Part shown: positions 35,316-56,405 of the stretch, piece after piece | How positions within the stretch are numbered: position 1 is the stretch's first letter | How the letters are laid out: each line of letters begins with the position of its first letter | Assembly (NCBI RefSeq): GCF_010723305.1 | Contig: NZ_BLKW01000002.1 | Span: forward strand, 1,736,001-1,800,000 | Direction of reading: 5' to 3' | Source of the DNA: Mycobacterium botniense | Lineage (GTDB): Bacteria > Actinomycetota > Actinomycetes > Mycobacteriales > Mycobacteriaceae | DNA: 64,000 nt | Position numbers and translations under genes: made by a program | The notes under the pieces: model-generated | Database searches by the model: none | Seen by the model: only the letters and a program-made list of their open reading frames with translations | What the model was told of the DNA's origin: nothing

Positions 35316-36584
35316 TCATGTCTCCACAAGGTGGGGGGAAGGCTCCGCCCCCGTCAACCAGTGGCGGCCGACCCGGCGGGCGGTTTCCCACTTGGGGATG
35401 CTCACTGCATCGTCTTGGCCGAGGTCCTCGGGGGTCGGCCCGATGCGTTGGGCCAGGGGAGCGAGGGCGTTCAGGTCGAAGTTGTACACCTCGGCTGCTG
35501 CCAGGCCCAGCATCTGGCGGGTTTCCTCGATGGGGACGTCCCAAAAAGAGCGCCGCAGCCATTCACGGGTATGCGGCCAAGTTCCCTCCGGATGGGGGAA
35601 GTCATTGCCCCACAACATGTTTGGCACACCGATCTCGTAGCGCCGCGCCAGCTCCCTGCGCTCCGTGGTGGTGGCCCCGATGAAACAGTTGCGGTCGAAG
35701 TAGGCTGAGGGCGGCATCGTCAGATCGCCCTCCATCAGATGGCTCATCTTCTTGGCCGAGTGCTCGCGCAAATACCGCGTATCCATCAGCCAGAGCAGGT
35801 CGTTGGCCCAGAATGCGCCACACTCCGTGACTCCCCATCGCAGCCGGGGGAAGCGCTCGAACACGCCTGACCACAGTGCGAACCACAGCGGCCGGGCCCC
35901 CCACCAGCGCACCTCGGTGACATAGATGCCCAGATGTCCGCCGTACTCCTCCTGCGGGGCGGGACCGGAGTGGGTGTGCACCGGCATCTGCAGGTCCTGG
36001 CAGGCGGCCCAGACCTTGTCGTAGCGACGGTCGTGGTAGGGCGGGTAGCCGACCCAGCGCGCGGGGATCAGAATCCCGCCCCGCAACCCCGATTCCGCGG
36101 CTCGGGTGATTTCGGCCACCGCCGCGTCGACATCCGCCAGTATCGGCACGACCGCGACCCCGGCCCGCCGCTCGGGGCTGTGGCTGCACAGCTCGGCCAG
36201 CCAGCGGTTGTGCGCCCGGGCCCCGGCCATGGCACGCCCCGGGTCGAGCTCGCCCGATTGGCCCAGACCGGCCCCGAACGGGGCCCCGGCGACCCCGGTT
36301 ACGGCGTCGGCGTCGGGGAAGATAACCTCGCCGGCCACCCCGTCGCCGTCGAGTTCCTTGTCCCGCAGCCCGACATCCCATCCGCCGGCGATACCCTCTC
36401 CATGCTCGGCGAACCACGCCTGCGCGAATTGCTCATCGATGAACTCGCCAACCTGCGGCGCGGCAGCCTTTTCGGCCAGGTACGCCTCGAACTCCTCCCG
36501 ATACTCCGGGTCGACATATTCGCGGTACCGTTCGGTGGGCAGCTCGGCGTGACAGTCCGCGGAGATGATCACATAGGGGTCCAC
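35316..36584 (-). CDS. Amidohydrolase-2 family protein
   Basis: 422 residues from a GTG at 36584 with AAAGGACG upstream. N-terminus DPYVIISADCHAELPTERY has DCHAE in place of the HxH metal motif; MPVHTHSGPAP supplies the mid-barrel His; LWGNDFPHPEG supplies the metal Asp. An insert around residues 60-85 distinguishes it from the neighbour. Last gene of a four-gene operon (39566 to 35316); 13 bases after the previous amidohydrolase. Members of this family decarboxylate or hydrolyse ring compounds; exact reaction unknown. Confidence 0.83.
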   Translation of the reverse strand: MDPYVIISADCHAELPTERYREYVDPEYREEFEAYLAEKAAAPQVGEFIDEQFAQAWFAEHGEGIAGGWDVGLRDKELDGDGVAGEVIFPDADAVTGVAGAPFGAGLGQSGELDPGRAMAGARAHNRWLAELCSHSPERRAGVAVVPILADVDAAVAEITRAAESGLRGGILIPARWVGYPPYHDRRYDKVWAACQDLQMPVHTHSGPAPQEEYGGHLGIYVTEVRWWGARPLWFALWSGVFERFPRLRWGVTECGAFWANDLLWLMDTRYLREHSAKKMSHLMEGDLTMPPSAYFDRNCFIGATTTERRELARRYEIGVPNMLWGNDFPHPEGTWPHTREWLRRSFWDVPIEETRQMLGLAAAEVYNFDLNALAPLAQRIGPTPEDLGQDDAVSIPKWETARRVGRHWLTGAEPSPHLVET

Positions 36585-36597
36585 AGGCGTCCTTTCG

Positions 36598-37812
36598 TTA
36601 CCAGGCACGGATGGGGTCAGGCTCGAAGACGGTGCTGCGCGCATCGGCGGGTACGGCCGCCAGCGGCTCGGCCACCTCGGCCACGGTCGGGCCGATCCGG
36701 TCCACGAGGGGCGCGAGCGCCTGGAGGTCGAAGCCATAGACGCTCGCCGCAGTACCGCCCACCATGGCCGCCACCTCGTCGGCCGGGACACCGCTGAAGG
36801 TATGGCGCAGCGCCTCGCGCGTGTAGGGAGCGGTGCCCTCGAAATGTGGGTAATCACTTCCCCACATGATCTTCTCGACGCCGATTCGGTGGCGCTCGGC
36901 GCATTCGACGGGTCGCATGAAGCTGGCGCCGACATAACACTGGCGGGCCCAGTACTGGCTGGGCTTAAGGGGTAATGAGCCGGCGGTCGGCCCGGCGAAC
37001 CGAGCGATCGCCGAGCTCGCTCGCCCATAACGCGCGACCGCGACGTCGAGCGAGTCGAGGGTCGCCGGTATCCAGCCGGCGCCCTGCTCGGTGAAGACCA
37101 CGGTGAGGTCCGGATGGCGATCGAGTACGCCACTGAAGATCAGATGCCACAGCGCCCGATGCGCCCACCAGTGCGTCTCGTACACCCACACCGCGAACGA
37201 GCTGCCCCACCCGTCGGTCGGGCTCGGCCCGGCGTTGCCACCGTGGTGGTTGACCACCACGCCCGCTTGCTCGCACGCCGCCCACAGCGGCTCCCAGTGC
37301 TCGGCGTAGAGCGGAGGGATGCCGCTGCCGGGGACGACTCCGGGCAGCAGCACACCGCCGCGCAGCCCCAGTTTCGCGATCTGGGCAATTTCGGTGACAG
37401 CCTCGTCGAGATCGCCGAGCAGGATCTGGCCTACCCCGGCGCGCCGCTCGGGCGAGGCGGAGCAGAAGTCGGCCAGCCAGCGATTGTGCGCACGCAGTCC
37501 GGCCCAGCGCAGCTCAAGCTCGCGGACGGTCTCCGGCGGGGGTGCGGCCAGGCTCGCCTGGGGGAAGAACGGCGGCACCGTATTGGGGAAGATGACCTCC
37601 CCCGCAATGCCTTCCCGGTCCAGATCAGCGTTGCGCCGGTCGCTGTTCCAATTGCGTTCGGCGTCGGGTTCGGTGAGGTCGGCGAACGGGTTGACGTATG
37701 TCTTTGCCCAGCCGTCGAATTCGTCGCGGTACTGCGGATCGAGGTACTCGCGGTAGTCGAGCAGATCCGCACCGGCGTGGCAGTCGGCCGAGATGACCGT
37801 ATACCGATCCAT
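36598..37812 (-). CDS. Amidohydrolase-2 family protein
   Basis: 404 residues. MDRYTVISADCHAGADLLDY, VVVNHHGGNAGPS and MWGSDYPHFEG mark the TIM-barrel amidohydrolase, again with DCHAG instead of HxH. N-terminal part is close to the protein at 29359 (HAGADL.DY, NTVPPFFP). Three bases after the acetoacetate-decarboxylase-like gene. Two paralogous copies in tandem suggest two successive steps or a hetero-oligomer. Confidence 0.84.
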   Translation of the reverse strand: MDRYTVISADCHAGADLLDYREYLDPQYRDEFDGWAKTYVNPFADLTEPDAERNWNSDRRNADLDREGIAGEVIFPNTVPPFFPQASLAAPPPETVRELELRWAGLRAHNRWLADFCSASPERRAGVGQILLGDLDEAVTEIAQIAKLGLRGGVLLPGVVPGSGIPPLYAEHWEPLWAACEQAGVVVNHHGGNAGPSPTDGWGSSFAVWVYETHWWAHRALWHLIFSGVLDRHPDLTVVFTEQGAGWIPATLDSLDVAVARYGRASSAIARFAGPTAGSLPLKPSQYWARQCYVGASFMRPVECAERHRIGVEKIMWGSDYPHFEGTAPYTREALRHTFSGVPADEVAAMVGGTAASVYGFDLQALAPLVDRIGPTVAEVAEPLAAVPADARSTVFEPDPIRAW

Positions 37813-37815
37813 GCG

Positions 37816-38631
37816 CTATACCCGCGCGGGCTCGGGTCCAGGGGCCGCGAGCAATGCTTCGTTGTCATAGGGCTCGTCGTAGCGCTGGTGCACATACGGC
37901 AGCAGCCACTCCTGCGGTACCCGCGCGGCGATCCGTCCCACCTGGACGGTGCGCCGGCGACACCAGGTGATCGAGCTGATCTGGCGGACCACGATGTCGG
38001 CCACCGGATCCAGTGGCGACTCCCCCAATTCGATTGTGCCGTCGATGTTTTCGAACAGCTCGTAGTGGCGGTGATATTCACCGTAGACCAGGTGCGGATC
38101 GGTGATACCGCTGCCGTCGGGAGCCCGCAGGAACTTGAAGTAGAACTCGGTGTCGACCTGGTCGGGTGGCAACTGCGCCGGGCCAGTGACCTGACCGTTC
38201 ACTCGGATGAGCTGATAGCCTAGCCGGTCAACTGTCGCGGTGACGCGATCGTCGTCACGCTGCACGTCGATGTGAGCCAATTTCTTGGGTTCGCCGAATG
38301 TTTCGCGCCCACCCGTGACCGATTGCTCGGTGGACTGGGGCATGAAGAGGGGATAGTCGCCGTGCAGCTCGCCATGCCGGGCGGTCACCGAAAACACCGC
38401 CGATCCGAATGGCGGTCTGCCCTCGATCCGGACCCGCTGAAGCTGAACGCGCACCAATGGCTCGGCCGCCGGTTCCAGCGGCTTGGGCAAGACGGCCGCG
38501 ACAATCTCCGGATCGGTGAGGTACGTGACAGTCACCGCTTCGGTGGCGATCGGCGCCTTGGTGGCGTCGACCTCGTGATCGACTTGCGCCTCGGGCGGGC
38601 GAGGGCCATACCGAATTATCTTGGTGCTCAA
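37816..38631 (-). CDS. Acetoacetate decarboxylase family protein
   Basis: 271 residues. The segment GGRETFGEPKKLAHI (about 110-124) matches the family region that carries the Schiff-base lysine, so decarboxylase or related aldolase-type chemistry is possible. Start is TTG at 38631, fixed by an AAGGAGGAAA site six bases away and a TTGA overlap with the SDR stop. Second gene of the IclR-adjacent operon. Many family members act on beta-keto acids; some are lyases or hydratases instead. Confidence 0.82.
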   Translation of the reverse strand: MSTKIIRYGPRPPEAQVDHEVDATKAPIATEAVTVTYLTDPEIVAAVLPKPLEPAAEPLVRVQLQRVRIEGRPPFGSAVFSVTARHGELHGDYPLFMPQSTEQSVTGGRETFGEPKKLAHIDVQRDDDRVTATVDRLGYQLIRVNGQVTGPAQLPPDQVDTEFYFKFLRAPDGSGITDPHLVYGEYHRHYELFENIDGTIELGESPLDPVADIVVRQISSITWCRRRTVQVGRIAARVPQEWLLPYVHQRYDEPYDNEALLAAPGPEPARV

Positions 38632-39566
38632 TGCTTTCCTCCTTCGGTAGCGGGCGTCTTCGCGGCGCTCTGGCTGAGCACGTCGACCAGGTAGTCGGGG
38701 TTGCTGCGAGCAAGGATCGACGTCGCCTTGCGGCGCACGACGTCCTCAGCGGGTGTGGGGGGACCCATCATCCAGAAGCGGTCTGCCCGGATTCCCTCGA
38801 CGACCTGGTCAGCGACCGTCTCGAGCGGAGTGAACTCGATACGTGCGCCGGCGGCCTCGAAGCGGGCCACAACGTCTGCCAGCGTGTGCTCGGGTGTGCG
38901 ACGTTTCTGTGTCGGGGCGTAGCGCTGCGGCCGGTGCCGCCACGACTCCCAAATGCCGGTGTTCAAAAAACCGCCCGGGAAAAGAACGTGCGCCCGCACC
39001 CGCGTCCCGGTCATCTGCAGGTGGGTGTAGAGGCTTTCGGTCAGGCAGAGCACCGCGGCCTTGGTCATCGGGTAGACCGCCGTGGCCGGTCCGCCCATGG
39101 CCCCCCGGGCGATCGGCGCGAACCCGCCGTTGCCCGAACAGGTGTTGATCACATGTCCGTCGCCCTGCCCCAGCAGCATCGGCACGAACGCCTTGATCCC
39201 GTGGATGACGCCGAGCACGTTGACGTCGATCCCCCAGCGCCAATCGGCCAGGTCGTGTTCCCACATATACCCTTCGGAGACCGCGCCGGTGCCCGCGTTG
39301 TTACACACCACGTGCACCGCGCCGAAGCGATCGAGCGTCTCCTTGGCGAGCGACTCGACCGAGGAATAGTCGGTCACATCGGTAACCACGCCAGCGGCCT
39401 CGATGCCCTCGCCCGCGAGTGCCCGGGTTGCCTGGTCCAGCGGTTCTTTGCGGACATCGGCCAGTACCACCTTCATACCTTCCTGGCCGAAGCGCCTGCC
39501 CAGGGCCCGGCCGATGCCGCCGGCTCCACCGGTGACGACCGCCACCCTGCCTTGAAGATCCGTCAT
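38628..39566 (-). CDS. Short-chain dehydrogenase/reductase
   Basis: 312 residues from the ATG at 39566 (39575 is an alternative adding three residues). TGGAGGIGRALG cofactor motif (11-22), NNAG, then a catalytic region with a longer loop between TCSGNGG and YPMTK than in most SDRs, and a C-terminal extension (about 240-312). First gene of the four-gene operon; its 5' region overlaps the inverted repeats facing the IclR gene, so it is likely controlled by it. Confidence 0.87.
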   Translation of the reverse strand: MTDLQGRVAVVTGGAGGIGRALGRRFGQEGMKVVLADVRKEPLDQATRALAGEGIEAAGVVTDVTDYSSVESLAKETLDRFGAVHVVCNNAGTGAVSEGYMWEHDLADWRWGIDVNVLGVIHGIKAFVPMLLGQGDGHVINTCSGNGGFAPIARGAMGGPATAVYPMTKAAVLCLTESLYTHLQMTGTRVRAHVLFPGGFLNTGIWESWRHRPQRYAPTQKRRTPEHTLADVVARFEAAGARIEFTPLETVADQVVEGIRADRFWMMGPPTPAEDVVRRKATSILARSNPDYLVDVLSQSAAKTPATEGGKH

Positions 39567-39580
39567 TGTGGCCATGGTCA

Positions 39581-39625
39581 CATGGTCGCTTATGACACCG
39601 CAAGCAGTCGCATTATGCGACCATG
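39581..39625. promoter_or_regulatory. Inverted repeats between SDR operon and iclR-type gene, candidate operator
   Basis: Two nested symmetries lie in the 64-base divergent gap. GTCGCATTATGCGAC (39607-39621) is a perfect 15-base palindrome with a central T. CATGGTCGC (39581-39589) and GCGACCATG (39617-39625) form longer-range 9-base arms. A partial second copy, GTCGCTTATGAC (39585-39596), precedes the palindrome. This is the expected place and form for an IclR-family operator controlling both directions. Confidence 0.55.
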
Positions 39626-39630
39626 GCGCT

Positions 39631-40563
39631 ATGGCTCCGCGTCCCTCACCCCAGACCGAACGGGTCGTGAAGCTGTTCGAGCATCTCGCGGGGGATGCGA
39701 GCCGGGGGATGACGTTGGCCGACGTATCGCGGCACTTGAGCGTCCATAAGGCCAGCTGCCACTCGATGCTGTCCGAACTGCTCCGGGCCGGTTGGTTGCT
39801 GCGCGACCCTGTTCGCAAGACCTACCACCTCGGTCCGGCTCTGGTCCGGCTCGGCCGGGAGGCGGCCAGCCGTTATCCGGCTCTGGTGTTGGCCCGCTCT
39901 GTGATGGCTGAGCTGGCGGCCGCGACCGGCGCGCACTGCATTGCCTTCTCGGTCAGCGATGACCACTCCACCGTCGTCGATCAGGTCCGAAGCCCTCGCG
40001 GCGGCGGTCACCCGATGCCCATCGGCACCCAGTTCCCCCACCGCCCGCCATACGGGGCGTCGATCGTTGCCTGGGCCGGGCCGGATGTGCGAGGGCGCTG
40101 GCTGGCCGCCCTGCCCGAGGACGTGCGCGACCGCTACCGCCGGGCTGTCACCGCCGCCCGGCAGCGGGGCTACGCGGTGGGTCTTCACATCCTGCCCGAT
40201 CTGCGCTTGCAGGAACTGGCGCAGATCGTGCGCAGCGCCGAGGTACGGTCCACCCGGCTGAGCCAGCTGGCGCAGGCGTTAACCGACGAACTCATCCACA
40301 CCGAAGAGTGGTTCCCGATCAGCCTGGCCGCAGACCGCACCTACGAGGTGAGTCACATCGACTCGCCAGTTCTGGAGGATGGATCGCGCATCGCCCTGAT
40401 GCTGAGCCTGGTTCCCAGCACCGGGCCGATGAGCGGCGCGGCGGTCACTCGTCTGGGGGCGCAGCTCTCGTCTGCAACCCGCCGGCTTAGCGCCGCCCTA
40501 ACCAAAGAGTCCCATCTCTCTGGTCGTTCGTCAGGTGACAACCCGGTACTCGACGCGGGTTGA
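39631..40563 (+). CDS. IclR-family transcriptional regulator
   Basis: 310 residues. N-terminal winged helix (about 8-70: MTLADVSRHLSVHKASCHSMLSELLRAGWL) followed by the IclR effector domain (about 80-250). IclR proteins control aromatic and short-chain acid catabolism. Divergent from the SDR/decarboxylase/amidohydrolase operon with palindromes between; convergent with the SnoaL-like gene at 40619, 55 bases away. Start ATG at 39631 follows the palindrome by 9 bases. Confidence 0.87.
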   Translation: MAPRPSPQTERVVKLFEHLAGDASRGMTLADVSRHLSVHKASCHSMLSELLRAGWLLRDPVRKTYHLGPALVRLGREAASRYPALVLARSVMAELAAATGAHCIAFSVSDDHSTVVDQVRSPRGGGHPMPIGTQFPHRPPYGASIVAWAGPDVRGRWLAALPEDVRDRYRRAVTAARQRGYAVGLHILPDLRLQELAQIVRSAEVRSTRLSQLAQALTDELIHTEEWFPISLAADRTYEVSHIDSPVLEDGSRIALMLSLVPSTGPMSGAAVTRLGAQLSSATRRLSAALTKESHLSGRSSGDNPVLDAG

Positions 40564-40618: not shown

Positions 40619-41167
40619 TCAGACGGCCCTGAGCGGATTGTGCCGCTCCCGCCGGTTGACCAGCGGCCGCTGATACGACGGATCCGCCTTGCTGCGCGAC
40701 GGCGCACCGTTGTCGTGGATATCGGGGACGTCGGCGAAGGGCAGTGGCATGGCCGGGACTATGCTTGACCATTCGATGACGTTGATACGCACTACAATCC
40801 GCCAGGATCCGTCACGCCGCTCAAGCCGGTCGATATAACGCCCCCCAGCCATCCAGTTAGTCTCGTCGCGGTTGCGTGCGACGAATAGGTAATACGTTTC
40901 GCTGTGGGCGGTTTCGCCGTCGATCTCGCAGGTGTGGTTGAGGAGGTTGTGATGTGTGGCCACTTGGCCCTTCTCATGCAGAGCCGAAGCCCACTCGTAA
41001 AGATCCGACGGGCCGCCGACGAAATCGCCTGCGGCGATGACCGCATCCGGGTGAAACGCGGACAGCAGAAGATCCCGGTCGAAACGGTCCATGCCGCGGC
41101 TGAACCGCGTCAGGCAATCCAGGATGTCATGCCGGTCCAGTACGCGCGCAACACGATCAGCGTCCAC
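40619..41167 (-). CDS. SnoaL-like / NTF2-fold protein
   Basis: 182 residues. N-terminal RHDILDCLTRFSRGMDRFDRD and central THHNLLNHTCEIDGETAHSE identify the SnoaL-like cone fold used by polyketide cyclases, ketosteroid-isomerase relatives and small ring-dioxygenase subunits. It overlaps the preceding SDR by 11 bases and is the last gene of the nine-gene operon starting at 51532. It could be a dehydratase/isomerase step or a partner of the Rieske oxygenase; the latter is less likely because of distance. Confidence 0.8.
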   Translation of the reverse strand: MDADRVARVLDRHDILDCLTRFSRGMDRFDRDLLLSAFHPDAVIAAGDFVGGPSDLYEWASALHEKGQVATHHNLLNHTCEIDGETAHSETYYLFVARNRDETNWMAGGRYIDRLERRDGSWRIVVRINVIEWSSIVPAMPLPFADVPDIHDNGAPSRSKADPSYQRPLVNRRERHNPLRAV

Positions 41168-42044
41168 GGGTGTCCTCCGCGATCGGGCGCCAAATCGGCG
41201 CGCCGCGCTCGGCCCGCAGCGACGGAATGACCCGGCCGTCCACGTCGGTGATGCCGTAGTCCCGGGCGATCTCCGCAGTGATGAACGTGCCTCCCGACCG
41301 CGTGATCACGTCGGGATCGGCGGCGAGTGCCGCGATCACCCGGCCGGGAAATTCAGGTGAGCAACCGACCGCCGGATTCGTGGCCGTCAGACCCCGCATC
41401 GCAGGCTCGCGCGCGAGATTGCGTTGCGCGCGTTCGGTAAACGTCAGGCCCTGCCACAACGAGAGCGACGCGACATGGTGTGGCCGCAATTCGATAGCCA
41501 TGTCGCGCGCCATCCGGTCGACGGCGGTCTTGCACGTCCCGAATACCACGCCGTACGTGTAGGTCACCCCAACATAGCCGGAGATAGCGACGATCAACCC
41601 CGACTGCTGGCCGACCATGATCTTGGCCGCATGCCAAGCCGCGACGAAGTTCGACCGCACACCGACCTCGACCATCTCCCAGTTCGACAGCGGCTTTTCC
41701 CAGAACGGTGCGGGCTCGGTCAAATCCTCCGGGATCGCAAAAGCGTTGTTGACGAGGATATCGAGCCTGCCCTGTTCACAACGGATTTGGTTGAACAGCG
41801 CCGCGACCTGATCATCGTCGGCGTGGTCGACTTGAACCGCGACCCCCGTGCCGCCGCGGCGGCAAACTTCCGCCGCAGTCTCGCCCACAGTGCCCGGCAA
41901 CGGGCCCGAGCCGGGGACGACGGTACGGCCCGTGATGTACACCGTCGCTCCTTCGGCTCCCAGCGCCACCGCGATACCCTTGCCGATCCCACGGCTGGCG
42001 CCGGTCACCAGCGCGACTTTCCCTGTCAGCGAACCCACCGCCAA
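41157..42044 (-). CDS. SDR-like protein with catalytic Tyr replaced by Phe
   Basis: 295 residues, DHRS1-like SDR. TGASRGIGKGIA (14-25), GRT after beta-2 (NADP preference) and NNAF are present. At the active site the family YxxxK reads FGTCK in GVVFGTCKTAVDRM, so the proton-donating Tyr is Phe; a Tyr occurs four and six residues earlier (VTYTYG). Either a nearby Tyr substitutes, or the protein is not a conventional dehydrogenase. Lies 55 bases after the aldehyde dehydrogenase. Confidence 0.85.
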   Translation of the reverse strand: MAVGSLTGKVALVTGASRGIGKGIAVALGAEGATVYITGRTVVPGSGPLPGTVGETAAEVCRRGGTGVAVQVDHADDDQVAALFNQIRCEQGRLDILVNNAFAIPEDLTEPAPFWEKPLSNWEMVEVGVRSNFVAAWHAAKIMVGQQSGLIVAISGYVGVTYTYGVVFGTCKTAVDRMARDMAIELRPHHVASLSLWQGLTFTERAQRNLAREPAMRGLTATNPAVGCSPEFPGRVIAALAADPDVITRSGGTFITAEIARDYGITDVDGRVIPSLRAERGAPIWRPIAEDTRGR

Positions 42045-42099
42045 AACACCTCGCTTTGATCTCCGACGGGCCGCCCGATGTCGTGCGGATCCGGTCCCG

Positions 42100-43536
42100 C
42101 TACCCGGCAGCGTTGTCCGGCGCGTACCCGAGCACGCTCTTGGTCTCCAGGTACTCGTGGAAGCCGAACTCGCTCCATTCGCGGCCGTTGCCGCTGCACT
42201 TGTAGCCGCCGAACGGCGCGTTCATGTCGAAGGCGTGGTTGATCGTCACCCAGCCGGCGCGGATTTTGCTGGCCACCGCCCGGGCCTTGTTGAGGTCGGC
42301 TCCCGAAACATAGCCGGCCAGACCGTAGTCGGTGTCGTTGGCGATCTCGATGGCATGGTCGATGTCGTCATAGCCCAGGATGCACAGCACGGGGCCGAAG
42401 ATTTCCTCGCGCGCGATGGTCATGTCGTTGGTGACGTCGGCGAAGACGGTGGGTTTGGCGTAGTAGCCTTTGTCCAGGCCGTCGGGCCGGCCAGGGCCGC
42501 CGGTGACCAGGGTGGCGCCCTCGTCGATGCCTTTCTGGATCAAGCGCTGCACCTTGTCGAATTGCGCCCGCGAGGCAAGCGGTCCGATGGCGTGGCTGTC
42601 GTCAGGATCGCCGACCTTGACTTGCTCGGCGGCTTCCCGCGCCACTGCGACGGCTTCCGCCATGCGCGATTTCGGCACCAGCATGCGCGAGGGCGCGTTA
42701 CAGCTCTGGCCGGTGTTGAGCATCATGTTGGTCACACCGGCCCGGACGCTGTTCTCGAATTCCGCATCGTCGAGCACGATGTTGGGGCTCTTGCCGCCGA
42801 GCTCCTGGGTAACCCGTTTGACCGTGCTGGCGGCCCTGGCGGCCACGTCGATGCCGGCGCGCGTCGAACCGGTGAACGAGACCATATCGATGCCGGGGTG
42901 GCTGGACAAGGCGACCCCTACCCCCGCGCCGTCCCCGTTGATGAGGTTGTACACGCCCGCCGGCACGCCCGCGGCGTCGAGAATCTCGGTGAATATGTAA
43001 GCCGAGTACGGCGCCACCTCGGACGGTTTCAATATCATCGTGCAGCCGGTCGCCAGCGCCGGATACACCTTCACCGCGATCTGGTTGAGCGGCCAGTTCC
43101 ACGGGGTGATCAGCCCGCACACCCCGACCGGCTCCTTGACCACCAAGGTTGCCCCGTGCTGTTGCTCGAACGCGAAGTTCTTCAGCACGTCGATGGCGGT
43201 CACCAGGTGACCCAGGCCAAGCTGCACCTGGGGCCCGGCGGCCAACGACGGCGGAGCGCCCATCTCCTCGGTCACCGCCTCCGCCAGATCGTCTGCACGC
43301 TTTTGATATTCGGCAAGAATCGCCTGCAGCAGCTCGAGGCGCTCTTCCCGGCTGCTCTCGGACCAGCCGGCGAAGGCGCGCCGCGCCGCGGTTACCGCCA
43401 CCTCGACGTCATCGGCCGAGCCGAGTGAGATCCGGCCCGTCACCTGTTCGGTCGCGGGATTTTCGACATCGAACGGGTGCGGCCGCACCGGATCCACCCA
43501 CTGGCCGTCGATATAGAACTTCAGATACTCGCGCAT
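42100..43536 (-). CDS. Aldehyde dehydrogenase (NAD(P)-dependent)
   Basis: 478 residues, full ALDH length; start ATG at 43536 behind GAGGGAAGGTGG. Motifs: WNWPLNQ (oxyanion/cofactor Asn), FTGSTRAG cofactor loop, catalytic Glu in ELGGKSPNIV, catalytic Cys in NTGQSCNAPSR, and EEIFGPVLC. Oxidises an aldehyde to the acid. It follows the ThDP enzyme by 27 bases, so the aldehyde may be the product of that lyase. Confidence 0.92.
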   Translation of the reverse strand: MREYLKFYIDGQWVDPVRPHPFDVENPATEQVTGRISLGSADDVEVAVTAARRAFAGWSESSREERLELLQAILAEYQKRADDLAEAVTEEMGAPPSLAAGPQVQLGLGHLVTAIDVLKNFAFEQQHGATLVVKEPVGVCGLITPWNWPLNQIAVKVYPALATGCTMILKPSEVAPYSAYIFTEILDAAGVPAGVYNLINGDGAGVGVALSSHPGIDMVSFTGSTRAGIDVAARAASTVKRVTQELGGKSPNIVLDDAEFENSVRAGVTNMMLNTGQSCNAPSRMLVPKSRMAEAVAVAREAAEQVKVGDPDDSHAIGPLASRAQFDKVQRLIQKGIDEGATLVTGGPGRPDGLDKGYYAKPTVFADVTNDMTIAREEIFGPVLCILGYDDIDHAIEIANDTDYGLAGYVSGADLNKARAVASKIRAGWVTINHAFDMNAPFGGYKCSGNGREWSEFGFHEYLETKSVLGYAPDNAAG

Positions 43537-45270: not shown

Positions 45271-45272
45271 GA

Positions 45273-49328: not shown

Positions 49329-50687
49329 TCACAGCTCGCGCGGTTCGCCGGTTCCCATATATTTCGACAGTTGATAGTGCAGGTTGACGGTGCTGCGTTC
49401 CATATACGGGTTGGGTTTGGTGCCCTTGAAGCCGAGCGATTTCATCCCCTGCTGCACCGCGGCCATATTGGCGAAGTCCTGTGGAAAAACGGTGCGCCAG
49501 CTGGGATCTCCCGGTGGGAGGTACTCCCACTCGGTGTGTGGCTCTTGGCCCTCGGGATAGAGCTCGTAGCAGGAGGCTTCGAAGATGCATTTGTTCGGGT
49601 CGTATCCGTAGGGCCGGGCACTGTAGCACAGCGCGGTGGTCAAGCCTTGGCCGATCTGGAAATTGGGGAATATCTGCCACGCCGTACCGCTGGCGGCCAG
49701 GTGTTCGGGATCGATGGTCGGCCAGATCACCCCGCGGGCAGCGTCGTCGCGGCGCGCGGCCGACAGCCAGTGCTCGAGCACCTGGTCCGCCGGGGTGCCC
49801 TCCGGAAGTTCGTCGACCAGCCTGCGTGCGGCATCCACCAATGTTTTGGTGGTGGTGGCGTCGGTTTCTTCCAGGGTGTAGACCTGCATCTGCGCGGTTG
49901 AGATTCGCGGGTCGGTGCCGGTGCCGAGCCGGATTTTCGACTTGGTTTTTTCCAGATCCTTCGGGGCGTCATAGCCAATGTTGCTATGCCGCCCGTGGAC
50001 TTTGGCCCAGCCGCGAAAGCTGCCGAACTTGTTGAACTGCGGGTGTGTGGTCGCGACGTGGTAGGTCTCGTTGAAGGCCTCCATCGCTACTTTCCAATTG
50101 CACTCAAAATGCAGCCATCTGCGCCACTTGCAACGCATTTTGTCCAACTGAAACGGGTCCAGCATGGTGGCGGCGGGCTCGAGATAATCACGCAACGGCT
50201 CGCAGTCGGGATCCATGTTGATCCACACCCACCCGCCCCAGGTATCGACGTTGACGGGCGCCAGGTGGGTGTTTTCCGGTGTCAGCGCACCCTGCCAGTC
50301 TTGTTTTTCGGGCACATGGGTGCAGCTGCCCTCCAGGTCGTATGTCCACCCGTGGAATCCGCAGACGAACGATTTCTTGCGGCCGCAAGCGTTTTTCGCG
50401 CCCTCAGGGATATCGACCAGACGGCGCCCGCGATGCATGCACACGTTGTGGTGAGCTTTGAATGTGCTGGGCCCGGTGCGCACCACCACGATGGAATCGT
50501 CGAGGATGTCATAGGTCAGGTAGCTGCCCACCTGGGGGAGGTCTTCGACCCGGCCGACCTGCTGCCACACCTTGCGCCACAGTTTGTCGCGCTCGGCGCG
50601 CGCATAATCCTCGGAGAGGTAGGCCTCGACCCCGATTGTGACCGGTGCGGACAGCTGCTCGGCTGCGTGCACTTCGGTGTCGGTCAT
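49329..50687 (-). CDS. Rieske non-heme iron oxygenase, alpha subunit
   Basis: 452 residues. Rieske [2Fe-2S] ligands C83, H85, C109, H112 (CMHRGR and CGFHGW) and the mononuclear-iron site NETYHVATTH with H210 and H215; Glu208 stands where dioxygenases have the bridging Asp. Such proteins hydroxylate or demethylate aromatic or steroid-like substrates and need a ferredoxin/reductase, which is not in this window. Overlaps the upstream SDR by 4 bases. Confidence 0.93.
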   Translation of the reverse strand: MTDTEVHAAEQLSAPVTIGVEAYLSEDYARAERDKLWRKVWQQVGRVEDLPQVGSYLTYDILDDSIVVVRTGPSTFKAHHNVCMHRGRRLVDIPEGAKNACGRKKSFVCGFHGWTYDLEGSCTHVPEKQDWQGALTPENTHLAPVNVDTWGGWVWINMDPDCEPLRDYLEPAATMLDPFQLDKMRCKWRRWLHFECNWKVAMEAFNETYHVATTHPQFNKFGSFRGWAKVHGRHSNIGYDAPKDLEKTKSKIRLGTGTDPRISTAQMQVYTLEETDATTTKTLVDAARRLVDELPEGTPADQVLEHWLSAARRDDAARGVIWPTIDPEHLAASGTAWQIFPNFQIGQGLTTALCYSARPYGYDPNKCIFEASCYELYPEGQEPHTEWEYLPPGDPSWRTVFPQDFANMAAVQQGMKSLGFKGTKPNPYMERSTVNLHYQLSKYMGTGEPREL

Positions 50688-51532
50688 CGCATGCTCCTTA
50701 GCGCCGCTCGGAACGACTCGTCCTTGAGAAACAACGACGTGTTGTCAGCGTCCAAATGGGACCACTTGAGGTCGAGGCCCCCGTCGACCAGCAGGGTCTG
50801 TCCGGTGATGTAGCTGGAAAGATCGGACAACAAAAACAGGATGGCGCCAGCGATCTCCTGCGCACGGCCACGCCGCCCCATCGCGATGGCGCGACGGTCA
50901 CGTTCCGGGTCGTGGTCGACATAGGTGCCCGAGGCCGGTGTCGCGGTGATCCCGGGCGCCACCGCGTTCACCCGGATGTTGTCCAGCGCCAACTCGAGCG
51001 CCATCGTGCGCGTCATCGCCGCCACCGCCGCCTTGGCTGTGCCGTAGGCAATGTGAAATGGTGCGGTGTTCATGCCGCTGATCGAGGACAACGAGACGAT
51101 CGCACCGGGCTTGCCCTGTTTTTTCAGCTCCGCCGCGACCGCCCGGCTCATAAAGAACGCGGTTTCGAGGTTCGCAGTGAACAATTCCCGCCAGTCGCTG
51201 CGGGTCACCCGGGTGGCGGGCATCCAGGTCGAGGGCGCCGCGCCACCGGCGATATTGACCAACCCATAAAGCTCGCCGACGGTGCCCCGCACGCGATCGA
51301 TGACGGTATCGATGCCCTCATCGGTCGACGCGTCGGCGGAGACCGGTATGACGGGAAGGCCTTGCCGGGCCAGGGGAGTGACGTGCTCGTCGAGGTTCGC
51401 GGTGGATCGGCTCACCGCGATCACGGTGGCCCCTGCCGCGGCAGCCATCGACGTCACTGTGGTACCGATGCCGCCGCCACCGGCGCCCGACACCACGACG
51501 ACGCGGCCGTCCAACCTCAACGGATCATGCAT
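50684..51532 (-). CDS. Short-chain dehydrogenase/reductase
   Basis: 282 residues, first gene of the nine-gene minus operon. The cofactor loop SGAGGGGIGTTV has one extra Gly compared with the usual TGxxxGIG. SSISGM and YGTAK give the catalytic Ser, Tyr and Lys. The ATG at 51532 is only 7 bases from the palindrome at 51540-51553, so binding there would block expression. Confidence 0.86.
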   Translation of the reverse strand: MHDPLRLDGRVVVVSGAGGGGIGTTVTSMAAAAGATVIAVSRSTANLDEHVTPLARQGLPVIPVSADASTDEGIDTVIDRVRGTVGELYGLVNIAGGAAPSTWMPATRVTRSDWRELFTANLETAFFMSRAVAAELKKQGKPGAIVSLSSISGMNTAPFHIAYGTAKAAVAAMTRTMALELALDNIRVNAVAPGITATPASGTYVDHDPERDRRAIAMGRRGRAQEIAGAILFLLSDLSSYITGQTLLVDGGLDLKWSHLDADNTSLFLKDESFRAALRSMR

Positions 51533-51539
51533 AGAGCGA

Positions 51540-51553
51540 TTTGTCCGGACAAA
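51540..51553. promoter_or_regulatory. Perfect palindrome, candidate GntR operator
   Basis: TTTGTCCGGACAAA is a perfect 14-base palindrome in the 162-base divergent region. A near copy of its core, TTGTCTGGAC, lies at 51637-51646 (core here TTGTCCGGAC, 51541-51550), 96 bases away and on the side of the plus-strand operon. Two sites flanking a divergent promoter region fit control of both operons by the GntR protein encoded at 53308. Confidence 0.55.
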
Positions 51554-51694
51554 ATATGTTACTCTCCATTTTGTAGAACACTATTCCGCTGAAGCTTAGA
51601 CTGCGTCAAGTGCCGATTATGCTGCTGCCTGAATAGTTGTCTGGACTAGTACATCTGACACCATCGGACGCGCGCATGGAAGGATCCCGCGAGG

Positions 51695-53311
51695 ATGACC
51701 ATGTCACCGGAAACGGGCCGATACGGCGTTATGAGCCCGCCGCAGGTGGCCGAGGGGTGGCGACTCGAGCGGGTCACCGCGCCCAGCCGGCTGTTCGGCG
51801 CCAATGGTCTGTGCGCCGGTCCGGACGATCGCATCTACATCGCGCAGGTAACCGGTAGCCAGATCAGCGCGCTGGATCTGCGCACCGGGGACGTGGGTGT
51901 CGTGAGCCCCAAGGGCGGTGACATCGTTGCGCCCGACGACGTTGCTTTCGACAGCGGCGGCAATCTGTACACCACCGAGGTCATGGACGGCCGGGTGAGT
52001 GTACTGGACCCCAGTGGGCGCCCGCGGGTGCTGCGCGACGATATCCCGGCCGCCAACGGCATCACGTTTCACCAAGGACGGTTATTCATCAGCGAGTGCC
52101 GTGTGGGTGGACGCATCCTCGAAATGGATCTCGGCGGCGGTGAACCCCGCGTGCTGTTGGAGAATGTCCCGCTGCCTAACGCGATGGAGGTCGGCCCCGA
52201 CGGCCTGCTGTACTTCCCGGTGATGGGCGCCAACCAGATCTGGCGCATCGATCTGGATGGTGGCGAACCACAGTGCGTTGCAGGAGATCTCGGTGTCCCA
52301 GATGCGGTGAAGTTCGATTCCGAGGGTTTCATCGTGTCCACCCAGGTGGCCAGCGGGCAGGTGCTGCGCATCGATCCGCGCAGCGGTGAGCGCAGCGTCC
52401 TCGCCGCGCTCAGCCCCGGGCTGGACAACCTCACCTTCGCCGGCGATCGGCTGCTGGTGTCGAACTTCACCGGCGAGATCACCGAGATTCTGCCCAGCGG
52501 TGCGACACGCGCCGTGTTGCCCGGCGGACTGAACTGGCCGCTGGACCTGGCGGTGGGCGATGACGCGAACCTCTACATCGCCGACGGCACGTTCTTCTAC
52601 GTGCGACATCCGGATGCGAGGTTGCACGCGGTCGGGATGTTGTTCTCTCCGGGCTATCCCGGGTTCGTGCGCGGCGTGGCACCGGCCGGCGCCGGGCAGT
52701 TCGTGGTGACGACCTCGGGCGGTCAGGTGGCCCGCTACCGGCCCGCCGCCGGCGAGAGCGAGGTGTTGGTGGATGGATTCGATCAACTCTACGGTGTGGC
52801 AATCGCTTCATCAGGTATCGCGTTCGCCGAACTGGGCACCGGACGGGTGTTGTCGCTGCGCGCAGGCAGGGTCGAGACGCTGGCGTCCGGCCTGCATGAG
52901 CCGGTTGGTGTGGCGATTGCCGCCGACGGCTCTGCTCTGGTCACCGAATCCGGTGCCGGGCGGGTGGTCCGGCTGACCGGCTCACACCCAGAGCCGGTGC
53001 TCGACGAATTAGGCTGCCCCCAAGGTATTCTGGCGACTGACGGTCGGATCTACATCGTCGACGCCAGCGCCAAGGAGTTGATCGAATTCGACCTGGACAC
53101 CGGGGCCCGCCGCACGATTGCCGCCGAGTTGCCGGTCGGAGCGCCGCCCGGTGTGGTGCCCAAACCGCTTAAAGGCTTACCGCCGTTCTCCGGCCCGCAG
53201 GGTCCATTCGCGGGGATCACAGCCGGGCCGGACGGCACCCTGTTTGTCTCCGCCGACGCGGAGGGCAGCGTCCTGGCATTGCACCCACCAGCTGCCGAGG
53301 ATCGCCGGTGA
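51695..53311 (+). CDS. SMP-30/gluconolactonase-like beta-propeller protein
   Basis: 538 residues with repeated blade motifs (NGLCAGPDDRIYIAQ, DDVAFDSGGNLYTTE, NAMEVGPDGLLYFPV, VGVAIAADGSALVTE, AGITAGPDGTLFVSA), enough for two propeller domains or one large one. No signal peptide. Family members are Ca-dependent lactonases or strictosidine-synthase relatives; next to a Baeyer-Villiger enzyme a lactone-opening role is attractive but unproven. First gene of the plus-strand operon. Confidence 0.78.
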   Translation: MTMSPETGRYGVMSPPQVAEGWRLERVTAPSRLFGANGLCAGPDDRIYIAQVTGSQISALDLRTGDVGVVSPKGGDIVAPDDVAFDSGGNLYTTEVMDGRVSVLDPSGRPRVLRDDIPAANGITFHQGRLFISECRVGGRILEMDLGGGEPRVLLENVPLPNAMEVGPDGLLYFPVMGANQIWRIDLDGGEPQCVAGDLGVPDAVKFDSEGFIVSTQVASGQVLRIDPRSGERSVLAALSPGLDNLTFAGDRLLVSNFTGEITEILPSGATRAVLPGGLNWPLDLAVGDDANLYIADGTFFYVRHPDARLHAVGMLFSPGYPGFVRGVAPAGAGQFVVTTSGGQVARYRPAAGESEVLVDGFDQLYGVAIASSGIAFAELGTGRVLSLRAGRVETLASGLHEPVGVAIAADGSALVTESGAGRVVRLTGSHPEPVLDELGCPQGILATDGRIYIVDASAKELIEFDLDTGARRTIAAELPVGAPPGVVPKPLKGLPPFSGPQGPFAGITAGPDGTLFVSADAEGSVLALHPPAAEDRR

Positions 53312-54045
53312 CCGTCAGCCCCACCGACCACCGCTACCTTCAGGTCGCGCGCACGCTGCGCAAGGAGATCGTCGAGGGAATTTACCCCGTAGGCACCCAG
53401 TTGCCCACTGAACATGAACTGTGCCAGCGGTTTAACGTGAGCCGCTACACCGTGCGGGAGGCGCTGCGCCGGCTCAGGGAAGACAACCTCGTCGTCTCGC
53501 GGCCGCGCGCGGGAACACTCGTCGTACCCCGCCCGGCGTCGAATTCGTATGCCCAGGATGTCAAGTCGATCAACGACCTGCTCGCTTTCGCGACCGGCAC
53601 CCAGTTCGCCATCGACTCGACCGCAATGGTGAGCGTCAACGACGATCTCGCCGGGCACACCGGGTTGCCGGTGGGCACCCAGTGGCTGGCCATCCGCGGA
53701 TATCGGCAGGCCGAGGAGGACTCGGCGCCGATCTGCCGCACTGAGTACTACATCAACCGGGCCTTCGCCGCGGTCGGCAGGTTACTGCAACGTCACACCG
53801 GCCCGGCTTTCCCACTGATCGAGGATCTGTTCGGAGTGAGTATCGTCGAGGTGCATCAGGAGATTGGCGCGGTGGTGCTCTCGCCCGGGGTGGCCGATCG
53901 GCTCAGGGTCGAGCCGGGAATCGCGGGGCTAGAGATCCGCCGCACCTACACGACGTCGGAAGGTGAGGTCGCCCAGGTGACGATCAACACGCATCCGTCC
54001 TCGCGTTTCCGGTATTCGATGACGATGCACCGGATCAAAGACTAG
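53308..54045 (+). CDS. GntR-family regulator with UTRA domain (HutC type)
   Basis: 245 residues. N-terminal winged helix (about 10-75: QLPTEHELCQRFNVSRYTVREALRRL) and a C-terminal UTRA effector-binding domain (about 95-240). Overlaps the propeller gene stop (GTGA). Likely represses both divergent operons through the sites at 51540-51553 and 51637-51646; UTRA domains bind small metabolites such as pathway intermediates. Confidence 0.9.
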   Translation: MTVSPTDHRYLQVARTLRKEIVEGIYPVGTQLPTEHELCQRFNVSRYTVREALRRLREDNLVVSRPRAGTLVVPRPASNSYAQDVKSINDLLAFATGTQFAIDSTAMVSVNDDLAGHTGLPVGTQWLAIRGYRQAEEDSAPICRTEYYINRAFAAVGRLLQRHTGPAFPLIEDLFGVSIVEVHQEIGAVVLSPGVADRLRVEPGIAGLEIRRTYTTSEGEVAQVTINTHPSSRFRYSMTMHRIKD

Positions 54046-54052
54046 GTTACCG

Positions 54053-55630
54053 GTGACAGTGCACACCGCTGCTGACCCTTACGCCCGCGGGTGGTGGGTC
54101 AATAGCACACTGGCTGATGCGCTGCGCGAATCCGCGGAACGAACTCCACAGCGCGTGGCGGTGGTCGACGGCGCATGCCGTCTGGACTGCGGAAGCCTCT
54201 ATTGTCAAGCGGCGACGCTGGCGCAGGCGCTGCTGGGGCGTATGCCGGTGGGCAGCGTGGTGTCGTTCATGCTGCCCAACTGGCACGAAGCGGTGGTCAT
54301 CTACCTGGCCGCCACGCTGGCCGGGATGGTGGTGAACCCCATCCTGCCGTCGCTGCGAGATCGCGAGCTGCGGTTCATCCTCGGTGACGCCCAAAGCCGC
54401 ATGATCTTTGTGCCATCCCGTTTCGGCCGCCGCGACTACATGCCCATGCTTAGCCGGGTCACGTCCGAGTTAGACACCCGCCCTGAGGTTGTCGTCGTGC
54501 GCGGTGATCCTGGCGATCACACCGCATACCCATCGCTGATCGATGAGCAGGCGCCGGCACGCGAGTTGCCGGCGCTGCAGGCCGACGCGGTACGTATGAT
54601 TCTCTACACATCGGGTACCACGGGACGGCCGAAAGGTGTGCTCCATAGCCATAATTCATTGCACGCGTTGATTTGTCAGATCCAGGAGCATTGGCTGGTC
54701 GAGCCTGGCGACCGGTTCTTGGTTCCCTCCCCGATCGCTCACATCGGTGGTTCGATCTACGCCTTCGAATGTCCGCTTCTGCTCGGCACGACCGCGGTGC
54801 TGATGGATCGGTGGGACGCGGATGCTGCCGTGCGGCTCATGCAGGCCGAGCACTGCACTCATATCGCAGGAGCGACACCGTTTTTGGAGCAGCTCCTCGA
54901 CGCGGCACAGCGGGCCGATACTCGGCTACCCGACCTGAAATTGTTCGTGTGTGGCGGCGCATCGGTACCCGCATCGTTGATCCGCAGCGCCGCAGCCTAT
55001 TTCGAGCGAGCCGTCGTCACCCGCGTCTACGGCTCGACGGAGGTGCCCGTCACGACGATCGGCGCGCCGACTGACCCGGACCGCGCCGCCGACACGGATG
55101 GCCGTCCCGGCTTGGCTGAGGTCAAGATCGCTGCAGCTGACGACGCATCGGTCGGTGCAGGCGAGATTCTCGCCCGCGGACCCCAGATGCTGGTCGGATA
55201 CCTGCATCCCGAGGACGAAGTAGAGTCGTTCGATACCGAAGGCTATTTCCGCACCGGGGACATAGGCCGCTGGGTTGACGGGCGGTATCTGGTCGTTACC
55301 GGCCGAGCCAAGGACATCATCATCCGCAAGGGCGAAAATATTTCGCCGAAAGAGATCGAGGACATCCTTATCGGTCATCCGGGCATCGCCGAGGTCGCTG
55401 TCGTCGGCCTGCCCGACGCGGCGACCGGCGAGCGGGCCTGCGCGGTGATCGTGCCCACCAGCGCACCGCCTCCCGACCTCGCCGCCTTGCGCGACTTTCT
55501 GGAAGCGCACGGCGTGGCTACGTTCAAAGTGCCGGAGCAAGTCGTCATCTGGGACGCCTTGCCGAAGAATGACGCGGGAAAAGTAGTGAAACAACACATC
55601 AAGGCGGCGCTTATGAAGGCGGACAGATGA
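54053..55630 (+). CDS. AMP-dependent acyl-CoA synthetase
   Basis: 525 residues. P-loop-like motif [12 protein letters not shown] (about 183-194), YGSTE (about 330), TGD and [20 protein letters not shown] hinge, and the C-terminal catalytic lysine in NDAGKVVK. Activates a carboxylic acid to acyl-CoA through an acyl-adenylate. GTG start 7 bases after the regulator. Resembles FadD/cyclohexanecarboxylate-type ligases; probably activates the pathway substrate or an acid intermediate. Confidence 0.9.
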
Positions 55631-55631
55631 C

Positions 55632-56405
55632 ATGCAGGTAGCGATCGTCACCGGCGCGAGCGGCGCCATCGGCTTTGGATGCGCGATTAAACTCGCCGGA
55701 GCGGGTGCCGCCGTGCTCGGAACGGGGCGGGATCGGAGCCGTCTGGACCAGCTGGAGAAGGCTATCGGCGATCCCGAGCGGGTCAGGACCGTGGCCGTGG
55801 ATCTCACCGACGACGACGCGCCGCGCCGCATCGTGGATGCCGCTGTCGAACGCTGGGGCCGTGTCGACTTTCTGATCAACAACGCCGGGGTGGGCAGCCC
55901 CACCCCGCTGCACGATACCGACGACGAAACCCTGGACCATTTTCTCGGACTGATGCTGCGCGCACCGTTCCGTTTGGCACGGGATGTGTTGCCGCATATG
56001 CAGCCCGGCTCGGCCATCATCAATATCACATCGACATTCGCTGTGGTGGGAGGTTTGCGCGGCGGCGCCTACTCTGCGGCCAAGGGCGGACTGACAGCGC
56101 TGACCACCCATATTGCCTGTCAATACGGTTCGCGTGGAATCCGGTGTAACGCGGTGGCGCCCGGTGTGATCGAAACGCCCATGACCGAAGCCCGCCTGCG
56201 GGATCAGCGCTTCCGCAGACTCAATATCGAGATGACCCCACATCAGCGGCTGGGCACGGTCGAGGATGTGGCGAGCACTGTGGCGTTTTTGTGTTCGCCC
56301 GGCGGCAGTTTCATCAACGGGCAGACGATTGTGGTCGACGGTGGCTGGAGTTCCACCAGATACCTCTCGGAGTTCGCACTGACGTCGCAGTGGACGGCCC
56401 GGTGA
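55632..56405 (+). CDS. Short-chain dehydrogenase/reductase
   Basis: 257 residues. [12 protein letters not shown] (8-19) departs slightly from TGxxxGIG; GRDRSR after beta-2 suggests NADP; NNAG, TSTFA and YSAAK are present; ends in [13 protein letters not shown] plus a short tail. One base after the acyl-CoA synthetase stop, so last gene of the plus-strand operon. It ends 63 bases before the tRNA-Thr 3' end. Confidence 0.87.

Follow-up and report, generated by a model that had tools for sequence, protein, structure and literature searches.

Two catabolic cassettes, carried apart in relatives, meet in one gene block of Mycobacterium botniense

The analyzed DNA of Mycobacterium botniense (contig NZ_BLKW01000002.1; "the window", 64,000 nucleotides) carries at positions 35316-56405 a block of 18 genes, which raises the question of whether they serve one pathway or several. 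The original prediction had described the block as a self-contained, doubly regulated catabolic island. The open reading frame (ORF) listing and the codon position statistics agree with its gene count and place, that is, operons of four, nine, and four genes plus a divergent IclR gene, and the enzyme families it named are those found by Pfam. The catabolic and doubly regulated character is also supported. Self-containment and a single pathway in one island, on the other hand, do not hold: in relatives the 18 genes are two cassettes carried apart, with different genomic places, operators, and distributions. With moderate confidence, we read them as two independent catabolic cassettes lying side by side, of which cassette A (40619-56405; the nine- and four-gene operons with GntR, around an oxygenase and a monooxygenase) would serve a bulky ring ketone and cassette B (35316-40563; four genes and IclR) a separate route under IclR.

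Domains were assigned with Pfam and NCBIfam. The set consists of a Rieske ring-hydroxylating-type oxygenase (RHO), a Baeyer-Villiger monooxygenase (BVMO), five short-chain dehydrogenases (SDR1-SDR5), a class III CoA transferase (CoAT3), an AMP-binding ligase (acyl-CoA synthetase, ACS), a thiamine diphosphate (ThDP) enzyme, an aldehyde dehydrogenase (ALDH), an acetoacetate decarboxylase-like protein (ADC), two PF04909 proteins (AH1 and AH2), an SMP-30/NHL propeller protein (SGL), and SnoaL_4, IclR, and GntR proteins. The order is AH1, AH2, ADC, SDR1 (minus strand), IclR (plus), nine genes from SnoaL (40619) to SDR4 (51532; minus), and SGL, GntR, ACS, SDR5 (plus). Within each operon most adjacent genes overlap or are separated by a few bases. 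The longest ORFs of BVMO and ALDH begin too early, and their likely starts are 49266 and 43536, respectively.

35316-36584, minus: AH1, PF04909 protein with the ligand set of dinuclear oxygenases, cassette B (Pfam; invariant ligand columns; best PDB matches PtmU3 and DitZ)
36598-37812, minus: AH2, PF04909, predicted dinuclear oxygenase nearest PtmU3, cassette B (Pfam, ligands, AlphaFold model, fold search)
37816-38631, minus: ADC-like decarboxylase with a KK pair (GEPKK), cassette B (PF06314; alignment to 3bgt)
38628-39566, minus: SDR1, PRK06194-type short-chain dehydrogenase, cassette B (NCBIfam NF004843 over cut-off; motifs TGGAGGIG and YPMTK)
39607-39621, unstranded: palindrome GTCGCATTATGCGAC, candidate IclR operator (conserved in IclR-positive B loci)
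39631-40563, plus: IclR-family regulator, cassette B (PF09339; start placed by the conserved MAPRPSPQTERVV of the intergenic alignment)
40619-41167, minus: SnoaL_4/NTF2-like protein, part of the cassette A operon and uncommon in the genus (Pfam)
41157-42044, minus: SDR2, part of the cassette A operon and uncommon in the genus (Pfam; FxxxK by motif scan)
42100-43536, minus: ALDH, exchangeable part of cassette A (PF00171)
43564-45270, minus: ThDP-dependent enzyme, exchangeable part of cassette A (PF02776/PF00205/PF02775)
45273-46490, minus: CoAT3, class III CoA transferase, cassette A (PF02515; best PDB match formyl-CoA transferase)
46483-47418, minus: SDR3, cassette A core (Pfam; adjoins BVMO in relatives)
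47419-49266, minus: type I BVMO, cassette A core (FKGHQFHSSRWD fingerprint; best PDB match 5mq6)
49329-50687, minus: RHO alpha subunit, cassette A core (PF00355 and PF00848)
50684-51532, minus: SDR4, cassette A core (Pfam; leads the RHO operon in relatives)
51541-51552, unstranded: candidate operator site 1, TTGTCCGGACAA, between the promoter-like element and the SDR4 start (alignment, pattern search)
51580-51609, minus: promoter-like element of the SDR4-RHO operon, TTGACG-18-AATAGT (sigma-70 scan; conserved in the 26-sequence alignment)
51637-51648, unstranded: candidate operator site 2, TTGTCTGGACTA, 96 bp from site 1 (alignment, pattern search)
51695-53311, plus: SGL, SMP-30/NHL protein, probable tandem double beta-propeller, cassette A (PF08450; AlphaFold)
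53308-54045, plus: GntR/UTRA (HutC-type) regulator, cassette A (PF00392 and PF07702)
54053-55630, plus: ACS, acyl-CoA synthetase, cassette A (PF00501 and PF13193)
55632-56405, plus: SDR5, cassette A (Pfam)

The ThDP protein was searched in 100 genomes (its own included) and neighborhoods of 34-40 kb were compared for 20 of them. In most, SDR5-ACS-GntR-SGL is divergent from SDR4-RHO-BVMO-SDR3-CoAT3-ThDP-ALDH, and two (G016 and G022) show the CoAT3-ThDP part and the SGL operon only. No high-identity match to AH1, AH2, ADC, SDR1, or IclR was found in these 20 neighborhoods. The named loci are the best 80 of 363 relatives found in a genome collection, with 10-kb flanks which cut many of the loci. 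At 50% identity or more, they include ThDP (80), CoAT3 (76), ALDH (67), BVMO (65), SDR3 (64), RHO (63), SDR4 (48), SGL, GntR, and ACS (37 each), SDR2 and SDR5 (two each), and SnoaL (one), and no cassette B gene. Relatives of SnoaL were located in G385, G092, and M. moriokaense (L072).

In a sample of 297 same-genus genomes, RHO is present in 228 (E <= 1e-150, as also applied to ThDP) and cassette B, with ADC as its marker (E <= 1e-40), in 53. Twenty B loci of 20 kb each were chosen among these 53 genomes; SDR1-ADC-AH2-AH1 are grouped in all of them. In G226 and G100, the two closest relatives compared, 20-26 kb separate the edges of the cassettes, and SDR5 is at the end of A turned toward the AH1 end of B; in the window, it is the SnoaL end of A that adjoins IclR. 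ADC and ThDP are both present in 40 genomes. Besides the window, 15 genomes carry them on one contig (pairs on different contigs are not judgeable), at 37-64 kb in seven and at more than 0.8 Mb, even for a circular contig, in eight. The window's own junction (40.6 kb) was not seen in any other genome with ADC and ThDP on one contig. Across relatives, A and B are therefore loosely associated, and their separate places, operators, and distributions in other genomes define two cassettes and not one unit. Within each half, the neighborhood is conserved.

Plasmids of Rhodococcus USK13 and Sphingobium RAC03 also carry the RHO-BVMO-ThDP combination, with identities of 53-70% for the Sphingobium copy. 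In the case of cassette B, no ADC match at E 1e-40 was found among 72,556 plasmid records. Two contigs labeled Acidobacteria (L107 and L117) encode a ThDP protein 80-81% identical to that of the window, which may be misbinned actinobacterial DNA or the result of a recent transfer. The ThDP match of G290 and the RHO match of G168 have one in-frame stop codon each, and these may reflect gene decay or sequencing error.

Each regulator had been credited with a palindromic operator candidate, and both candidates are conserved. An alignment of the SDR4-SGL gap of the window with those of 25 named loci (26 sequences in all) contains two TTGTCYGGACWA-like sites, and the element GAGAACACTATTCC is conserved in it. 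In its own genome, TTGTCYGGACWA is found only at 51541-51552 and 51637-51648, both within this gap (three strand matches, against four for the reversed control pattern). At least one site is present in each of the 37 named loci with SGL, and two sites in 20 of them; none was found in the other 43, whose stretches are without SGL. The loci examined (2.92 Mb, partly overlapping and related) contain 97 sites, against none in one mononucleotide shuffle. The sigma-70 scan gave three matches where 3.4 were expected from shuffles, that is, no excess of promoters.

In G022, cassette A is split into a CoAT3-to-ThDP locus and an SDR4-RHO-BVMO-SDR3-ALDH locus, 3.3 Mb apart on the contig. Each has one TTGTCYGGACWA site on its promoter side, between SGL and CoAT3 and upstream of SDR4, respectively. 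The M. branderi plasmid copy has one site 140 bp before ThDP. All five tested loci of the type with a luciferase-like monooxygenase (LLM) in place of ThDP hold both sites (up to one mismatch, spacing 95-96 bp). The operator shared by both G022 loci marks cassette A as a single regulon within the genus, with either cleavage system. GntR, by the position of its gene, would be the binder of TTGTCYGGACWA.

The M. branderi copy (L167, plasmid pJCM12687, 11518) is on a megaplasmid in the order ThDP-ALDH-RHO-BVMO-SDR3-CoAT3, with the cassette A operator before ThDP. The gene table names no GntR/UTRA gene beside it and an FCD-domain regulator further on; the regulator of this copy may act from the chromosome.

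For cassette B, the palindrome GTCGCATTATGCGAC occurs in a single place of its own genome at zero or one mismatch; a tolerance of two mismatches gives 12 matches, against 22 for the control. The candidate operator, written GTCGCAYTATGCGA and also GTCGCAYTATGCGAC, is present (up to one mismatch) in all 15 B loci with IclR. It is lacking in four of the five without a detected IclR, and the fifth, G190, carries it but also has 500 masked bases. IclR is the putative binder of this palindrome. The operators of A and B differ, share no site, and are each restricted to one promoter region of their own genome. In one of 21 aligned sequences (L053 of G201), which is without IclR and without the cassette B operator, several copies of a short repeat related to AAGGTCGGACGCCTTGTTCC are located at the SDR1 start.

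The most interesting point concerns the cleavage step of cassette A, in which two unrelated systems strictly alternate in a very common mycobacterial cassette. At the same threshold (E <= 1e-150), ThDP is present in 154 and LLM in 75 of the 297 genomes. Among the 228 RHO-positive genomes, 152 have ThDP, 75 have LLM, none has both, and one (G152) has neither. ThDP without RHO occurs in two genomes (G185 and G307) and LLM without RHO in none. In G201 and G111 the LLM gene is placed directly between RHO and BVMO, and match coordinates set it beside RHO elsewhere too (e.g., G262, G188, and G006). CoAT3 is present in all 25 LLM-type loci examined; ALDH was not found in any of them, 20 of these stretches being only 9 kb long.

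Trees were built from 67 RHO and 68 BVMO proteins of 71 stretches (55% identity, 60% coverage), with G022 labeled ThDP by hand (its ThDP being at the other locus) and one Sphingobium RHO row unlabeled. They need nine and six ThDP/LLM label changes, respectively, of which at least five and four are forced by well-supported branches, and a single change appears in 0% of 200 bootstrap trees. Since the switch seems to have occurred several times in the gene trees, ThDP with ALDH and LLM probably serve one and the same function. This function is likely an oxidative cleavage of a C-C bond beside a carbonyl: the ThDP enzyme would cleave a diketone or acyloin, ALDH would oxidize the resulting aldehyde, and LLM would perform a Baeyer-Villiger oxidation, an activity reported for one LLM (available part of PMC12239570).

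Type I BVMOs have the fingerprint FxGxxxHxxxW(P/D) between two Rossmann motifs. In the cassette A enzyme, FKGHQFHSSRWD is found together with GGGIAG and GTGASG, which places it in type I. Its best PDB match is 5mq6 (398.7 bits, the next being 266.6), which we take to be PockeMO. The clade of PntE and PockeMO takes bulky substrates or ketones (PMC6058054, as far as its available part describes). RHO has the Rieske motif and its best PDB match is carnitine monooxygenase (94.8 bits), others following closely. Genes of four acyl-CoA dehydrogenase-type families (f11-f14; domains confirmed in G016 and G013) occur in 16 of 25 stretches, and in 14 of these they are located between CoAT3 and ThDP. Some stretches also encode an enoyl-CoA hydratase (f34) or a Gfo/Idh/MocA protein (f20). 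SDR2 (41157-42044) has FxxxK instead of the usual YxxxK and may therefore be inactive as a dehydrogenase.

Lactonases of the SMP-30/gluconolactonase family are single six-bladed propellers with Glu, Asn, and Asp as metal ligands. SGL matches PF08450 and keeps conserved Asp and Asn positions, but the metal ligands were not located, and its AlphaFold model (pLDDT 87.7, 47 strands) resembles a tandem double propeller, which it probably is. The best fold matches are two-propeller proteins with a low whole-chain TM-score (0.35). The name lactonase is for this reason a guess.

From these families, a route can be proposed for cassette A. It would degrade a bulky ring ketone, or an acid yielding one; our best guess for the substrate is a polycyclic terpenoid or steroid-like compound. 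RHO and SDR4 would oxygenate a carbon of the ring, leaving a ketone or alpha-hydroxyketone; BVMO would insert oxygen into the C-C(=O) bond, and SGL or a host hydrolase would open the lactone or ester. ThDP and ALDH would break the C-C bond beside a carbonyl and turn the aldehyde into an acid, a step that LLM would take in other species. SDR3 and SDR5 would oxidize alcohols, and CoAT3 and ACS would form CoA thioesters for beta-oxidation, in line with the acyl-CoA dehydrogenase genes in the operon of many relatives. GntR would repress both divergent operons from the two operators 96 bp apart. The predicted logic of oxygenation, insertion, opening, activation, cleavage, and oxidation remains plausible for cassette A by itself, and not for the whole block.

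In cassette B, the best solved-structure matches of AH1 and AH2, and of L1, a third PF04909 gene outside the block, are PtmU3 and DitZ. Dinuclear metal ligands of the pattern D-x-H, H, E, D-x-x-H are described for AibH2 and LynB7 (available parts of PMC7782822 and PMC10127204). These six ligands are invariant in AH1, AH2, L1, and their relatives: in all 20 proteins aligned from the three paralogue groups, where the extra Glu of PtmU3 is kept too, and in 25 of 25 from a broader set that overlaps with the first. In a PDB fold search with the AH2 model (pLDDT 88.3), ranks one to seven are chains of PtmU3, DitZ, SfbO, and TruffO, and an uncharacterized amidohydrolase is close behind. The best 120 of 5828 AH2 relatives include Mycobacterium, Acidimicrobiales, and Streptomyces proteins. 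As this dinuclear site is kept, AH1 and AH2 are probably hydroxylases, that is, dinuclear-metal oxygenases of the PtmU3/AibH2 kind; the description as amidohydrolase-like enzymes gives way to this one, and plain hydrolases were rejected on the ligand set. The lysine pair of GEPKK in the ADC-like protein aligns with the PKK of ADC (3bgt), and SDR1 is over the cut-off of NF004843. The oxygenase pair would hydroxylate an acid or CoA ester, SDR1 would oxidize it to a beta-keto acid, and the ADC-like protein would decarboxylate this to a ketone.

A bolder version is offered tentatively, as we would sooner expect it to fail than to hold. It states that the ThDP lyase with ALDH and LLM are interchangeable, mutually exclusive solutions to one step of ring or chain cleavage, swapped several times while the rest of the Rieske-BVMO cassette, present in about three quarters of the sampled mycobacterial genomes, stayed constant, and that the AH pair, as diiron or Mn/Fe oxygenases, makes beta-keto acids for decarboxylation in a new hydroxylate-oxidize-decarboxylate route.

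Several observations weigh against the reading as two independent cassettes with these functions. The exclusion of ThDP and LLM depends on the cut-off of E <= 1e-150, and the shared step was deduced from the exclusion and not from residues. RHO and BVMO give incongruent trees, in which the window's RHO groups with G100 and G226 and its BVMO with G226 only, so some of the switches may be exchanges of RHO or BVMO genes; by these trees, gene exchange is part of the history of the cassette. Among PDB chains, the ThDP enzyme scores 195.6 bits with a 2-hydroxyacyl-CoA lyase/synthase and about as much, 191.2, with an ancestral acetolactate synthase, and NCBIfam ranks acetolactate synthase models first. 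The best fold matches of SGL are receptors and not lactonases. A same-fold decarboxylase is close behind for AH2 (rank nine, similar E-value). About 90% of AibH2-like genes adjoin a small Rieske ferredoxin gene (available part of PMC10401708), whereas none was found near cassette B in a search of its own genome, where the nearest Rieske domains are RHO itself and a 388-residue frame about 58 kb away, the only small frame (130 residues) being about 238 kb away. No operator match was found in G385, G092, G083, or the Rhodococcus and Sphingobium plasmids, and the regulation of cassette A is accordingly supported within the genus only. Finally, in seven of the 15 informative relatives A and B are less than 65 kb apart (37-64 kb from ADC to ThDP), and RHO is present in 51 of the 53 B-positive genomes, so that the two cassettes may be functionally linked.

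These last two observations are also the support for a single 18-gene pathway, in which cassette B would prepare, by hydroxylation, oxidation, and decarboxylation, the ketone for the BVMO of A. ADC would indeed produce a ketone, and RHO is more frequent with B than without it (177 of the 244 B-negative genomes; Fisher p 5e-5, kinship ignored). We consider this reading doubtful, given that 177 of the 228 RHO-positive genomes are without B, that regulators and operators differ with no site in common, and that the 20 B loci of 20 kb hold no cassette A gene at high identity.

Another possibility is degradation of a steroid side chain or ring, with BVMO and LLM as steroid Baeyer-Villiger enzymes like those of the Caenibius pdc cluster. 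It draws on two of the following genes (L2 and L3), which lie outside the block at coordinates below those of cassette B.

29359-30633, plus: L1, third PF04909 dinuclear-oxygenase-like gene (Pfam; invariant ligands; near cassette B in some relatives)
30909-32231, minus: L2, HsaA-like flavin monooxygenase (NF045629; near cassette B in G190 and G332)
32760-33860, plus: L3, HsaD-like alpha/beta hydrolase (NF045632; relatives show no link to B)
34099-35220, plus: fused HadA/HadB-like (MaoC) hydratase (NF040620 over cut-off; near cassette B in G226, G100, and G332)

Three of these (the third PF04909 gene, the HsaA-like gene, and the HadAB-like gene) are linked to B in some relatives and fall outside the predicted block, at 29359-35220, a further point against its self-containment. 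L1 is present in seven and the hydratase in three of the 20 B loci. By the HsaA-like and HsaD-like genes (30909-33860), a phenol ring may be cleaved by enzymes encoded close to cassette B; in the steroid reading, both genes would belong to that pathway. The acyl-CoA dehydrogenase genes of relatives also fit, and the available part of PMC12239570 describes the pdc BVMO and LLM as both oxidizing progesterone and as functionally redundant. However, L2 (381.7 bits, cut-off 450) and L3 (280.2 bits, cut-off 400) do not reach their family cut-offs, the BVMO scores higher against 5mq6 than against steroid monooxygenase (about 214 bits), and in the loci compared LLM coexists with BVMO and excludes ThDP instead. 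A steroid pathway is therefore judged unlikely.

Alpha-oxidation is equally improbable in our view. The ThDP enzyme would then act as a 2-hydroxyacyl-CoA lyase with formyl-CoA and an aldehyde as products, ALDH would yield the shortened acid, and CoAT3 would recycle CoA from formyl-CoA. The best PDB matches of ThDP (2-hydroxyacyl-CoA lyase/synthase) and of CoAT3 (formyl-CoA transferase) are consistent with this, and an actinobacterial lyase cluster with a GntR gene is known (available part of PMC7176365). Yet the ThDP enzyme scores 174 bits against the 2-hydroxyacyl-CoA lyase model NF058623, whose cut-off is 600, LLM is no obvious replacement for a lyase of CoA esters, and CoAT3, which is kept without ThDP in every LLM-type locus examined, is thus not tied to the lyase. 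A single island is rejected, as relatives do not preserve it, and so is tRNA-linked integration, with no tRNA in eight stretches of the two nearest relatives (integrases were not searched for).

Import of the substrate by the adjacent Mce2, which the original prediction offered as a possibility, finds little support in relatives: homologues of the window's Mce/YrbE genes are found in one of 20 A loci (G013, 54-63% identity) and in one of eight further stretches (G111, 51-62%), and a MceA homologue (65-66%) in two of 24 B or between-cassette stretches. The two MCE-type operons of the window are located at 273-8701 and 19098-28829 (MlaE permeases and MCE proteins by Pfam, seven genes tested), with a trehalose-phosphate-synthase-family gene between them (10541-11995). 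A tRNA-Thr (56468-56540) directly follows cassette A, and further on (61464-63518) there is a FadH/OYE-type flavoenzyme, which scores below the cut-offs and has mycofactocin-associated and bile-acid enzymes as relatives.

The original prediction knew of no characterized pathway with this gene set, and no description of it was recognized among the papers listed by searches of open-access full text, subscription papers being outside the scope. Given the presence of RHO in 228 of 297 genomes, environmental mycobacteria may thus use a widespread carbon source that has gone unrecognized. The alternation of ThDP and LLM is a natural experiment on enzyme replacement and hints at an undescribed way to degrade bulky ring compounds. 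The operators could be used as reporters for finding the inducing compound, and cassette B adds a conserved mycobacterial operon to the few known dinuclear PF04909 oxygenases.

Among known systems, the oxygenases PtmU3, AibH2, and SfbO share with AH1 and AH2 the PF04909 fold, the D-x-H, H, E, D-x-x-H ligands, and the PtmU3-type Glu, and PtmU3 and SfbO are among the top fold matches of AH2. In AibH1H2, as far as the available source describes it, one partner is mononuclear, whereas AH1 and AH2 are adjacent paralogues both with full sites. They also differ from the AibH2-like group in having no adjacent small Rieske protein and in sharing an operon with an SDR and ADC. The PockeMO/PntE/PtlE clade provides the best PDB and NCBIfam matches of the cassette A BVMO, which is nevertheless below the equivalog cut-off of PtlE (pentalenolactone D synthase, NF045818; 693.3 of 1100 bits). 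The actinobacterial 2-hydroxyacyl-CoA lyase cluster has in common with cassette A a ThDP enzyme, GntR, an aldehyde dehydrogenase, and CoA activation; its gene table lists no Rieske oxygenase or BVMO (available part of PMC7176365), and the ThDP enzyme of cassette A is far below the family cut-off. The progesterone cluster pdc of Caenibius tardaugens, according to the available part of PMC12239570, consists of four genes (BVMO, LLM, and two regulators) and shares with the LLM-type relatives a type I BVMO and an LLM in one regulated cluster; the sampled mycobacteria differ from it in that their LLM excludes ThDP.

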